Below are positions 2,043-29,933 of a stretch of DNA of 64,000 nucleotides, piece by piece. A program made the translations under genes and the position numbers. The notes below the pieces were generated by a model. That model did not search any database, had not been told where the DNA came from, and saw only the letters and a list, made by a program, of their open reading frames with translations. Each line of letters begins with the position of its first letter. Position 1 is the stretch's first letter. This DNA comes from Kordiimonadales bacterium IMCC3096. GTDB taxonomy: Bacteria; Pseudomonadota; Alphaproteobacteria; Minwuiales; Minwuiaceae. Location of the stretch: assembly GCA_016865035.1 (NCBI GenBank), contig CP018227.1, positions 1,520,001 through 1,584,000 of the forward strand, read 5' to 3'.

Positions 2043-2068
2043 GGGGCGTGACGGCCAGCATGGCTGAT

Positions 2069-2153
2069 GACCGTTCCTCCCCTCTCCCCCTCCCGGCCAC
2101 CCATTGAGGATACTCCCGTGGGTGGCCGGGAGGGGGAGAGGGGAGGAACGGTC
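2069..2153. repeat. long perfect intergenic hairpin, copy A
   Basis: Inverted repeat with 35-base arms at 2069-2103 and 2119-2153, complementary at every position, around a 15-base loop (2104-2118). The arms begin GACCGTTCCTCCCCTC and end CCCGGCCACCCA. Read on the minus strand the loop is CGGGAGTATCCTCAA, nearly the loop of copies B (10958-11103) and C (29738-29899). It lies between the convergent genes folE and cspA, just before a separate terminator. No open reading frame or transposase is associated. Confidence 0.9.
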
Positions 2154-2171
2154 CACAAACACCCCCCAACG

Positions 2172-9069: not shown

Positions 9070-9448
9070 TTGCGTCTGTCACATACCCGCTCGGCATCGA
9101 AAAAAAAGTGTCATTCTTGAATCCGGGGAATCCCCGTTGGATTCCTGCGCCTTGCGTCACGGGCCTCGCACAGGGGACCAACAAAACGGTCCGGAAACTG
9201 ATTCGTTGTGCTTGCGCAGCCCCCCCTGAACGATCTATGTTCTGGGGCGTCAGGCGGATGGGGCTTGCCACTGAAAAAGTGCACAAAAAAGCAAGAAAAA
9301 TGTGCAGTTTTTTGGGCAGCATCTCAAGTATCGACGCTAATTGTAGCTTTATGCTGTTAAGTGGACACGCGCAATTTTTCTGATTGCGGGGAACGGGAAA
9401 GATTTGTTCTTTCCTTCTGGTGCTGCGGACCATGCGAGGGAGGCGGGT
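9070..9448 (+). promoter_or_regulatory. dnaA upstream region
   Basis: No gene is seen here. The stretch holds a short palindrome (GAATCC, GGGGAATCCCC, then GGATTC at 9119-9144) and, from about 9265 to 9385, a markedly AT-rich part unlike the rest of the window. An imperfect inverted repeat lies in it: AAAAAGTGCACA (9274-9285) and TGTGCAGTTTTT (9301-9312), one mismatch, A-rich 15-base spacer. I find no match to the DnaA box TTATNCACA on either strand by eye, so I do not call an origin. It probably holds the dnaA promoter and control sites. Confidence 0.5.
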
Positions 9449-10948
9449 TTGAGGGACGATGATTTGTCAGATGCGCCGAGTCCTGTGCTTCAAGGCAGCG
9501 ATGACAATCAACGCGCACTGGATCTGCTCTGGATGGCCGTCTCGCAGCGCGCCATGCAGACGGTAGGCGAGGCGTCCTACAACAGCTGGTTGCGTCCGCT
9601 GCGCCCGGTCGCGTTGCATGACGACCAGGTTGTCCTGCTGGCCCCGACCGGTTTCCTGCGCGACTGGATTTCCAACAATTACCGCCCCCTGCTGGAACGT
9701 GAGTTCCGCGTCGACATTCCACATCTGCGTGAAGTGGTGATCGATGTCGGTATGGATGCCCGCCTGGAGGCCATGGCCAGCCGCAAGGATGGCATTGCCG
9801 ACGACGGTGCCCCGATGAAACGCACCGGCAAGCCAGCCGGCACGACCAACGGCAACGGTTCCAGACCTGCACCGGACGCACCGTCGATCATTCGTCCGCG
9901 GGAGGCCGAGCCGGAAAAGGGTCTGGTCAGCGTCCTGGACCAGAACCTGACCTTCGACAAGTTCGTCGTCGGCAAGCCCAACGAACTGGCCTATGCCGCC
10001 GCCCGCCGGGTGGCTGATGCCGACGGGGTCGCCTTCAATCCGCTGTTCCTCTACGCCGGGGTCGGCCTCGGCAAGACGCATCTGATGCATGCGATCGCCT
10101 GGCATATCCGCCAGCGTCGTCCGGACCGGAAGGTGCTCTACCTCACCGCCGAGATGTTCATGTATCATTTCATCAAGGCCGTGCGGTTCCGCGATACCGT
10201 CTCCTTCAAGGAGAAGTTCCGGTCCGTCGACGTGCTGATGGTCGATGACCTGCAGTTCATTTCAGGCAAGGAGTCGACGCAGGAGGAATTCTTCCACACC
10301 TTCAACGAGCTGATCGACCGCAACCACCAGATCGTGGTCTCCGCTGACCGCTCCCCGTCCGATCTGGAGGGGATGGAGGAACGCGTCCGGTCCCGCCTGG
10401 CCTGGGGCCTGGTCGCCGACATCCACCCGACCGACTTCGAACTGCGTGTCGGCATCCTGGAACAGAAGCTGGCCCTGGAACCGGAAGTGACCGTCCCGCG
10501 GGAAGTCATCGAGTTCCTGGCACACCGCATCACCTCGAACGTGCGGGAGCTGGAGGGGGCCATGAAGCGCATCATCGCCTACCACGCCCTGATGGGCCGC
10601 GCGATCTCGCTGGAAATGGTGCAGGAGGTGCTGGCCGACGTGCTGCGTGCCAATGCCCGCAAGGTCTCCATCGACGACATCCAGCGCAAGGTGGCGGAGC
10701 ATTACAACATCCGGATGGCGGAAATGTCGTCCGCCCGCCGCGCCCGCGCGGTCGCCCGGCCCCGCCAGGTCGCGATGTTCCTGGCCAAGCGCCTGACCAG
10801 CCGCAGCCTGCCGGAGATCGGTCGCAAGTTCGGCAACCGTGACCATACGACAGTGCTGCACGGTGTCCGCCGGATCGAGGAACTGATCCAGTCCGATGTC
10901 AGCCTGGCGGAGGATGTCAGGATGCTGGAGGCCGCCCTGTCGAACTGA
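9449..10948 (+). CDS. dnaA: chromosomal replication initiator DnaA
   Basis: Binds origin DnaA boxes and opens the duplex; also a transcription factor. Domain I covers about the first 80 residues (LLWMAVSQRAMQ), a linker follows, then the AAA+ domain with Walker A GVGLGKTHL near residue 204 and Walker B VLMVDDLQF near 262, and the C-terminal helix-turn-helix with RPRQVAMFLAKRLTSRSLPE and GNRDHTTVLHG near 434-475. I choose TTG at 9449 (499 residues) because AGGGAGG lies 5 bases upstream; an alternative TTG at 9404 would add 15 residues. Followed by the 31-bp repeats and hairpin B, then dnaN. Confidence 0.97.
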   Translation: MRDDDLSDAPSPVLQGSDDNQRALDLLWMAVSQRAMQTVGEASYNSWLRPLRPVALHDDQVVLLAPTGFLRDWISNNYRPLLEREFRVDIPHLREVVIDVGMDARLEAMASRKDGIADDGAPMKRTGKPAGTTNGNGSRPAPDAPSIIRPREAEPEKGLVSVLDQNLTFDKFVVGKPNELAYAAARRVADADGVAFNPLFLYAGVGLGKTHLMHAIAWHIRQRRPDRKVLYLTAEMFMYHFIKAVRFRDTVSFKEKFRSVDVLMVDDLQFISGKESTQEEFFHTFNELIDRNHQIVVSADRSPSDLEGMEERVRSRLAWGLVADIHPTDFELRVGILEQKLALEPEVTVPREVIEFLAHRITSNVRELEGAMKRIIAYHALMGRAISLEMVQEVLADVLRANARKVSIDDIQRKVAEHYNIRMAEMSSARRARAVARPRQVAMFLAKRLTSRSLPEIGRKFGNRDHTTVLHGVRRIEELIQSDVSLAEDVRMLEAALSN

Positions 10949-10957
10949 CCCGATTGC

Positions 10958-11103
10958 GGCCTGTGCCATCCCTCTCCCGGTTTGTCGTGGCCTGTGCCAT
11001 CCCTCTCCCGGTTTGTCGTGGCCTGTGCCATCCCTCTCCCCCACCCGGCCACCCACGGGAGTATCCTTATTGGGTGGCCGGGTGGGGGAGAGGGATGGCA
11101 CAG
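10958..11103. repeat. long hairpin copy B with two leading 31-bp direct repeats
   Basis: Two adjacent identical 31-bp units (10958-10988 and 10989-11019, each starting GGCCTGTGCCATCCCTC and ending GGTTTGTCGT) run into a third partial unit at 11020 that forms the left arm of a perfect 33-bp inverted repeat (11023-11055 with 11071-11103). The loop, 11056-11070, is CGGGAGTATCCTTAT. The array fills the dnaA-dnaN gap. The transcript would fold into a very stable hairpin, so it may end or process the dnaA message. There are no spacers between units, so it is not a CRISPR. Confidence 0.9.
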
Positions 11104-11221
11104 CCAGCAATCGGATCCTGATGACACAGGCCACAGACGACTCCCGACGCCACCATCGTACCCTGCCGAATCGGGGCGGTTTCACTGGCGAATCCGGAAG
11201 TGCCCATGCTATACGGAGTCT

Positions 11222-11247
11222 CTTGCCTGGCTGTCCTGTCAGGCAAG
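11222..11247 (+). promoter_or_regulatory. small hairpin in the dnaN leader
   Basis: CTTGCCTG (11222-11229) pairs perfectly with CAGGCAAG (11240-11247) around a 10-base loop, ending 33 bases before the dnaN ATG. No T-run follows, so it is more likely leader structure than a terminator. The dnaN start itself has no evident Shine-Dalgarno sequence. Confidence 0.4.
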
Positions 11248-11280
11248 GTTCCTGGCAACGACATCTGGCTCGATTCTGCG

Positions 11281-12393
11281 ATGAAACTTACCATTGAACG
11301 CACAGCGCTGCTGGTCTCCCTCAATCACGTCCAGAGCGTGGTGGAGCGGCGCAACACGATCCCCATTCTCAGCCATGTCCAGATCGAGGCAACAGCCGAC
11401 GGCGTCCGGTTCCGCGCCACCGATCTGGAACTTGCGGTGGTGGAAAGCTGTGCCGCGATGGTGGAGACGCCAGGCATGGCCACGGCGCCTGCCCATACGC
11501 TGTACGACATCGTGCGGAAGCTGCCTGACGGCGCCGACATCCAGCTCAGCCTGGATACGGAGCGGCGGCGGCTGAACCTGCAGGCCGGCCGGTCGCGCTT
11601 CGCGCTCGCCTGTCTGCCCAACGACGATTTCCCGACCATCGAGGATGACGAGCTGCCGCACCAGTTCCGGCTGCCGGTGGCAACCGCCCGCACGCTGCTG
11701 GAACGGACCCGGTTCGCGATCTCGACCGAAGAGACCCGCTATTACCTGAACGGCATCTATGTCCACGCGACGGATGACGGCAAGCATATCCGCGCCGTGG
11801 CGACCGACGGCCATCGTCTCGCCCGCTTCGAGATGGAAGCACCGGAGGGCGCTGAAGCCCTGCCCGGCGTCATCATCCCGCGCAAGGCGGTGACCGAGAT
11901 TCACAAGCTGCTGGGCGATGCCGGCGGCGACATGGCCGTTTCCGTCAGTGAAAGCCGGATCCGGTTCAGTGTCGGTGACACCGTTCTGACATCGAAGCTG
12001 ATCGACGGATCCTTCCCGGATTACGAGCGGGTGATCCCGTCCGGCAATGACCGGAAGATGGACGTGGATGCCAAGGTCTTCCTGTCGGCAGTCGACCGCG
12101 TCTCCACCATCTCCACGGAGAAGTCGCGGGCGGTGAAGCTCAGCCTTCAGAACGAGCGCATGACCCTTTCGGCAAACAGCCCCGACGCTGGCAGCGCCAC
12201 CGAGGAACTGGCGGTGAACTATGCGTCGGAGGACATGGAGATCGGTTTCAACTCCAGGTACCTGATGGATGTGGCGAGCCAGATCGACGGCGAGACCGCC
12301 ATCTTCGAACTGGCGGATTCCAACTCGCCGACCCTGATCCGGGACGCGGATGACGCGTCGGCGCTCTATGTGCTGATGCCCATGCGGGTCTGA
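11281..12393 (+). CDS. dnaN: DNA polymerase III beta subunit (sliding clamp)
   Basis: Ring-shaped processivity clamp that tethers polymerase III and other partners to DNA. 370 residues, family length, with three clamp folds. Typical blocks: MKLTIERTALLVSLNHVQSV at the start, RNTIPILSHVQIEA, YYLNGIYVHA, VATDGHRLA, and the C-terminal YVLMPMRV that lines the partner-binding pocket. The ATG at 11281 is chosen over an upstream ATG at 11197-11205 because family members start here. It is followed after 8 bases by recF. Confidence 0.97.
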   Translation: MKLTIERTALLVSLNHVQSVVERRNTIPILSHVQIEATADGVRFRATDLELAVVESCAAMVETPGMATAPAHTLYDIVRKLPDGADIQLSLDTERRRLNLQAGRSRFALACLPNDDFPTIEDDELPHQFRLPVATARTLLERTRFAISTEETRYYLNGIYVHATDDGKHIRAVATDGHRLARFEMEAPEGAEALPGVIIPRKAVTEIHKLLGDAGGDMAVSVSESRIRFSVGDTVLTSKLIDGSFPDYERVIPSGNDRKMDVDAKVFLSAVDRVSTISTEKSRAVKLSLQNERMTLSANSPDAGSATEELAVNYASEDMEIGFNSRYLMDVASQIDGETAIFELADSNSPTLIRDADDASALYVLMPMRV

Positions 12394-29737: not shown

Positions 29738-29899
29738 GCGGAAGTCGTTTGCGGTCCCCGGCCTGCCCTCTCGGGAGTTGTTGGCGGTCCCGGCCATCCC
29801 TCTCGGGAGGCGTTTGTTGACCTCGGCCATCCCTCTCCCCCTCCCGACCACCCACGGGATTATCCTGTTGGGTGGTCGGGAGGGGGAGAGGGATGGCCG
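29738..29899. repeat. long hairpin copy C with leading degenerate direct repeats
   Basis: Perfect 31-bp inverted repeat (29824-29854 with 29869-29899) with a 14-base loop CGGGATTATCCTGT. Two degenerate copies of the left arm stand before it at about 29745-29775 and 29780-29812 (CGGCCTGCCCTCTCGGGAG, CGGCCATCCCTCTCGGGAG), spaced about 32 bases, as in copy B. Fills the gap between DUF2333 and the Usp gene. Arms differ from A and B (CGGCCATC outside, GACCACCCA inside) but pair perfectly. Confidence 0.9.
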
Positions 29900-29933
29900 G
29901 GGACCATAGATGGCTATCGGGTCCGCAGACGTA

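Follow-up and report, generated by a model that had tools for sequence, protein, structure and literature searches.

The locus raises the question of why a long palindrome should be preceded by two degenerate copies of its own left arm. It lies in a window of 64,000 nucleotides, i.e., positions 1520001-1584000 of a genome, probably that of a Minwuia-like alphaproteobacterium, consisting of one contig of 4,291,441 bases. The initial annotation had read the same order of units and palindrome at two loci of this window as the sign of a shared mechanism at work at different ages. Dispersed palindromes are common in bacteria, and to our knowledge the turnover of those without an obvious transposase is poorly known.

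Palindromes A and B and the units beside them

Palindrome A consists of perfect 31-nt arms at 29824-29854 and 29869-29899 with a 14-nt loop between them, and its folding (-49.6 kcal/mol, z -13.6) was far better than that of shuffled sequences. The 14-mer CGGCC(TG or AT)CCCTCTC starts at 29759, 29791, and 29824, at spacings of 32 and 33, and the stretch 29739-29837 forms a tandem array with a period of 33, 3.0 copies, and 79% matches, which bears out the description of a 31-bp hairpin preceded by two degenerate arm copies about 32 bases apart. Folding of this lead-in array was not better than that of shuffles (z +1.0). The annotation had further given each unit a small CTCTCGGGAG hairpin; the string is present twice, but folds no better than expected by chance, at -1.6 kcal/mol (z -1.1) and -2.7 kcal/mol (z -1.3), and we read it as a junction where the end of an old arm (CTCTC) meets the outer end of the next unit (GGGAG). 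Rfam at gathering score gave 0 matches within the window.

For copy B at 11016-11110, which had been described as the same design with exact units, the description held, the array at 10958-11040 having a period of 31, 2.7 copies, and 100% matches; CCGGTTTGTCG occurs among the new arms or outer ends there. As single-stranded DNA, this array folds better than shuffles (z -3.4). A separate GC-rich hairpin at 2174-2202, terminator-like by eye, adjoins the third copy in the window. The coordinates of all features are given in Table 1.

Table 1. Palindromic elements, lead-in units, and end remnants in the window.
Feature	Position	Strand	Description
A lead-in unit 1	29744..29772	+	Outer end and outer arm of the oldest element (..GTTTGCGGTCCCCGGCCTGCCCTCTC), ending after CTCTC
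A lead-in unit 2	29773..29804	+	GGGAGTTGTTGGCGGTCCCGGCCATCCCTCTC; read as leftover of a second, replaced element
Present element A	29805..29905	+	Outer end GGGAGGCGTTTG; loop CGGGATTATCCTGT at 29855-29868; orientation F
Possible right-end remnant of an older A element	29918..29931	+	CGGGTCCGCAGACG; tentative, since short (14 nt)
B lead-in unit 1	10952..10976	+	Left end of the original element; flank and arm align with the single G001 element (GATCGCGGTCTGTGCCATCCCTCTCC)
B lead-in unit 2	10977..11007	+	31 nt, identical to the outer arm of the present B element
B palindromic element	11008..11110	+	Loop CGGGAGTATCCTTAT; orientation F; between dnaA and dnaN
B right-end remnant	11125..11146	+	CACAGGCCACAGACGACTCCCG; aligns with CACAGACCACAGACGACTCCC, the right end of the element in G001
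Third window copy	2058..2164	-	Loop orientation R; no lead-in scored on either side

A dispersed element and its place among known systems

Palindrome A is a member of a dispersed family of non-coding palindromic elements, each about 100-115 bp long. From the outside inward, the element has an outer end close to GGGAGTC.TTTG, an outer arm of about 17 nt, a conserved inner arm (CCCNCCCGRCCACCCA), and a loop of 14-18 nt which carries TATCCT or a near form on one strand and by which elements were typed as F or R; the conservation extends about 31-32 nt beyond the inner arm, roughly as GGGAGTC.TTTG(C/T)(T/G)G. A loose inner-arm pattern gave at least 62 forward and at least 61 reverse hits in the own genome, i.e., about two per element, in comparison to 3 and 1 for the reversed control. 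At least 62 own copies were detected (54 by script and 8 by hand, with three unclear orientations set to F), and since they were taken from stretches around matches, from which diverged copies are possibly missing, the own counts are lower bounds. A two-arm regular expression on the fetched stretches found at least 62 elements in the own genome, possibly not the identical set, at least 58 in G001, a sister genome of the same genus, and at least 38 in the sister genome G002. The regions of G001, G002, and a further genome, G004, were chosen from match lists and are thus biased toward elements resembling A and B; G001 and G002 are draft genomes, and G002 has N at some elements.

The A palindrome was matched in 9 of 60 genomes, the own genome included, and other genomes contain exact inner arms in at least 115 stretches, which among the matches listed belong to Alphaproteobacteria such as Sphingomonas, Qipengyuania, and Kiloniellales, with one exception named Mesoflavibacter. 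In Sphingomonadales and other Alphaproteobacteria, the core GGCACCGGCCCGCTCCCCCACCCGGCCACCCA is frequent with a loop of 13-19 nt (loci L090-L204), and beside it there is often what by eye resembles a second small hairpin. The open-access literature searched, including by sequence strings, yielded no description of the element family.

As to chromosomal position, element B lies between dnaA and dnaN in the stretch 9404-12393 of the window. Of the 62 listed own copies, 46 lie within 500 kb of dnaA in comparison to 14.4 expected, and 1-Mb windows centered at several points from 1.51 to 1.67 Mb also hold 46 copies. The fetched loci show a reversal of GC skew at about 1.5 to 1.9 Mb, and the copies seem to be clustered around the likely origin. 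With a rough ORF picker, the own elements were placed shortly behind genes: the median distance from the element center was 63 nt to the neighboring 3' gene end (67 ends) and 86 nt to the 5' end (55 ends), and the gene pairs around own elements were tandem in 33 cases, convergent in 17, divergent in 11, and unknown in 1.

REP/BIME sequences with RAYT resemble the element in being palindromes that are scattered between genes in high copy number and are sometimes reiterated in tandem together with the DNA flanking them (PMC3733652). The element nevertheless departs from REP in size, tag, and RAYT: the 20-40 bp given for REP compare with about 100-115 bp here (A arms of 31-47 nt plus loop), the terminal GTAG/CGTC tag is not conserved in the end profile of the element, and the Y1 transposase domain (Y1_Tnp, PF01797) of RAYT had no match in 7 genomes of the genus, i.e., the own and six others. 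With two further family members included, PF01797 was matched in 1 of 9 genomes (G008), and the control search was positive in 5 of 14 known genomes.

Like a MITE, the element has terminal inverted repeats and is too short for a transposase, and like the MITEs and the RUP, RPE, and ERIC-like elements treated in PMC10969869, it is present or absent between relatives, as at site B, where G002, G004, and G005 show none. The MITE criteria apply only in part, however: no target-site duplication or parent transposon was found in the only six elements with both outer ends recognizable by pattern and in a unit-pattern scan of the own genome, and the turnover described below takes place inside existing copies, at a repeated breakpoint. 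YPAL is a further miniature palindromic element of this kind. The PIT/TMECO motifs of E. coli, intergenic potential intrastrand triplex motifs in unstable neighborhoods according to the accessible portion of PMC4666352, are similar in their CCCTCTCCC/GGGAGAGGG arms, intergenic position, and unstable neighborhoods, whereas the present element has a stem of 31 bp and a loop of 14 nt. The PIT/TMECO consensus, CCCTCNCCC N3-6 GGGNGAGGG N3 GGGNGAGGG, was rejected as a match, with 0 occurrences in the own genome and 1 in 308 loci. Finally, the hairpin elements of sponge mitochondria are inserted in tandem with each other, as stated in the available text of PMC2800124, and such hairpin elements and GC clusters of sponges and yeast share tandem hairpin insertion with the element; they differ in being mitochondrial and of other sequence, and that text describes no repeated breakpoint inside resident copies.

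Lead-in units across copies and at orthologous sites

Units were called with a 17-nt outer-arm profile (score of at least 9, one best unit per flank) in the own genome, G001, and G002. For the listed elements of these three genomes, a unit was present in 33 of the 157 near flanks on the left and in 19 of the 154 on the right; as controls, the flanks further out gave 0 of 311 and the near flanks in reverse complement 5 of 311, which confirmed that lead-in units exceed chance. They are optional and stand on either side of the loop: for the 62 listed own elements, a unit was found on the left only in 9, on the right only in 4, on both sides in 2, and on neither side in 47. The expectation in the initial annotation that a genome-wide comparison would find lead-in repeats always on the same side of the loop was thus contradicted, both by the 47 elements without a unit and by the sides themselves (11 left vs 6 right; two-sided p = 0.33); the side excess is also weak over three genomes (33 left vs 19 right; p = 0.07, with sites shared and not independent). 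With the fork assumed from dnaA, replication polarity was not clear either, 7 units being met first and 10 last.

The unit pattern had 14 hits in the whole own genome, 11 of which adjoin full elements, while the other 3 lie elsewhere with 2 mismatches each (control 1). Outside the family, a copy of the respective element's arm with at most 4 differences was found in 3 of 225 flanks (control mean 1.65) and with at most 3 in 2 (control 0.2), in comparison to 13 and 12 of 124 flanks by the same measure in the own genome (controls 0.3 and 0), so that outside Minwuia and its family lead-ins are at most a trace.

A total of 52 units were scored, and 2 were dropped for N. No inner arm follows 48 of the 50 N-free units, in comparison to its presence after 153 of the 158 left arms that belong to whole elements. 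Of these 50 units, 35 stand 33-34 nt from the next arm, and the profile hits in the flank of A lie 34 and 66 nt out. Units stop near CTCTC and are followed by a short stretch resembling the outer end of the element itself. These unit ends mark a repeated breakpoint.

The own flanks mostly match those of G001 and G002 at 85-97%. Of the 32 site-sides that carry a unit in one genome or more, 29 differ between genomes. Site A has one element with loop R and no lead-ins in G001 and G002, two lead-ins and loop F in the own genome, and no element in G004. The 17-mer of A unit 1 is identical to the left arm of the G001 element at the same site and differs from that of G002 by one deleted G, and the two A units come from different arm families. 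The possible right-end remnant of A occupies the position where the right end of the G002 element, GGGGTCCACGAAAGACTC, stands, and the common flank TCACTTCAG follows directly. At site B, G001 has one element without lead-ins; the own genome has extra units on the left, while on its right side an additional piece precedes the old right end. The different ages proposed in the annotation agree with these comparisons, the A and B lead-ins being absent from the sister element at the same site and the A units belonging to different arm families. The shared mechanism stands in part, in that both loci look like element-into-element replacement, but the exact units of B also require tandem duplication.

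Further sites show the arms more completely. At site 34 (1751926) the own element is uninterrupted, whereas in G002 and G001 a different complete element stands between old outer arms, which differ from the own ones by 0 (left) and 1 (right) in G002 and by 3 and 2 in G001; this site is a before/after pair. Old arms stand on both sides of a newer element in the own genome, G001, and G002 at site 29, and in the own genome, not in G002, at site 32. Site 11 has its lead-in on the left with loop F in the own genome and on the right with loop R in G001, as if it had been inverted, though the loops also differ.

A unit was within 1 nt of the arm of a lead-in-free ortholog in 14 of 45 N-free comparisons, in comparison to 3.5 expected (nominal P 4e-6, the comparisons not being independent), and for six of those 14 (sites 20, 31, 34, 40, and 43) the own neighboring arm is at least 3 away. 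The units at sites 10, 42, and 43 look like a plain duplication of the own arm, site 10 being partly a parsing artifact, and 9 of the 50 N-free units are within 1 nt of their own neighboring arm, with about 3.9 expected. Over all 48 comparisons, the unit was nearer the arm of the ortholog in 22, nearer the own arm in 20, and tied in 6. Since ortholog-like and own-arm-like units were both seen, both histories occur, and only the ortholog-like units need replacement.

The cores differ between genomes as well. Loop direction was the same in 47 and flipped in 26 of the 73 comparable pairs among 79 orthologous pairs, and the loop edit distance at orthologous sites was 3.05 (79 pairs), almost as large as the 3.77 at unrelated sites (922 pairs). 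The outer arms differed by at least 3 of 17 on both sides in 21 of the 79 pairs, on one side in 30, and on neither in 28, with some of these differences overstated through one-base shifts or N. The arm on the side away from the lead-in was altered in place at site 31, its flank being intact, and site 8 in G001 is a left/right hybrid. The inverted and exchanged loops at orthologous sites show what appears to be a general turnover of the core. Between species, the loops of sites 29 (own and G001) and 59 (own and G002) become identical once one of the two is reverse-complemented, as if recombination had taken place between the arms of the palindrome.

Origin of the lead-in units

We consider it probable that the lead-ins are truncated arms of older, replaced elements and reflect history, not a working part. 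The reading is supported by the repeated breakpoint, by the optional units on either side, by the units that match the arm of a lead-in-free ortholog, by sites A, B, 29, 32, and 34, by the loops inverted and exchanged at orthologous sites, and by the unit-pattern hits, 11 of 14 of which adjoin full elements. An incoming copy with its own outer ends would take over the place of the old core, whose outer arm could persist as far as about CTCTC, to the left, to the right, or on both sides. Replacement occurring several times would give degenerate units, at A from an older CCGGCCTG element and then CCGGCCAT ones, while at B replacement followed by tandem duplication of one unit of about 31 nt would give exact units; loops would additionally be swapped or inverted. 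The trigger may be an extruded core hairpin that is cut near its base and repaired by capturing another copy. Certain results speak against replacement: many events are one-sided, site 31 fits arm-onto-arm copying better than whole-element insertion, only one outer arm differs by at least 3 in 30 of the 79 orthologous pairs, the units divide 22/20/6 between ortholog, own arm, and ties, and the own-arm-like units (9 of 50) are above the number expected. The right remnant at A, moreover, is only 14 nt long, and neither a target-site duplication nor a Y1 transposase nor a donor copy was identified in the sequences covered.

Much of the same evidence bears on ectopic gene conversion among dispersed copies alone, which with no insertion would produce mixed arms, flipped loops, and leftovers. 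It would fit the loops exchanged and inverted at conserved sites, the 21, 30, and 28 pairs with arm differences on both sides, one, or neither, the right arm of site 31 altered in place, and the hybrid at site 8 in G001; conversion by homology alone, however, would place no new outer end next to CTCTC, nor would it leave a complete new element flanked by both old arms, as at sites 29, 32, and 34. As the whole explanation, conversion appears unlikely, and it may well act on the core in addition to replacement. The exact 31-nt units of B would instead suit slippage or unequal exchange at the hairpin, by which the outer arm is duplicated in tandem and degenerate units are old duplications; so would the two identical 36-nt units of G002 at site 43, the G001 unit at site 42 that equals its arm, the excess of units within 1 nt of the neighboring arm, and the regular unit spacing. 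Yet 41 of 50 units are more than 1 nt from the neighboring arm, several come from a different arm family (CCTGTTCCAT next to ACCGTGCCTC) or agree with the arm of a relative at the same site, the spacer resembles the element's own outer end, and no clear replication polarity was seen (7 first, 10 last), and we hold slippage to be quite unlikely as the general origin of the units.

It is very improbable that the lead-ins are functional, for example in an intrastrand triplex to which CCCTCTC would contribute the third strand, facing GGGAGAGGG, or as binding sites for a mobilizing protein. In favor of such a function, parallel pairing of CCCTCTC with the purine arm GGGAGAGGG would in principle be feasible. 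G/C-rich intrastrand triplex motifs of such composition are described in PMC4666352, which links them to instability in E. coli. The distribution of the units speaks against it, with 47 of the 62 listed own elements having none, 29 of 32 site-sides variable between genomes, and at most a trace outside the family (3 of 225 flanks at up to 4 differences, control mean 1.65, and 2 at up to 3, control 0.2), and the consensus published for the triplex motif does not occur in the own genome.

Returning to replacement, the manner of mobility can be proposed only with considerable doubt: the extruded core could be cut at a fixed point of the arm after CTCTC and another dispersed copy captured, with no transposase of its own. 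If true, this mode of capture would be a site-faithful, hairpin-for-hairpin replacement that leaves countable scars. The scars put the events at a single site in order, i.e., old arm, newer arm, and present element, and the sister genomes supply before/after pairs with a repeated breakpoint; ordered scars together with such pairs make the mechanism testable, both for the cutter and for the source of the incoming copy. A repeat architecture next to a hairpin can reflect history rather than design.
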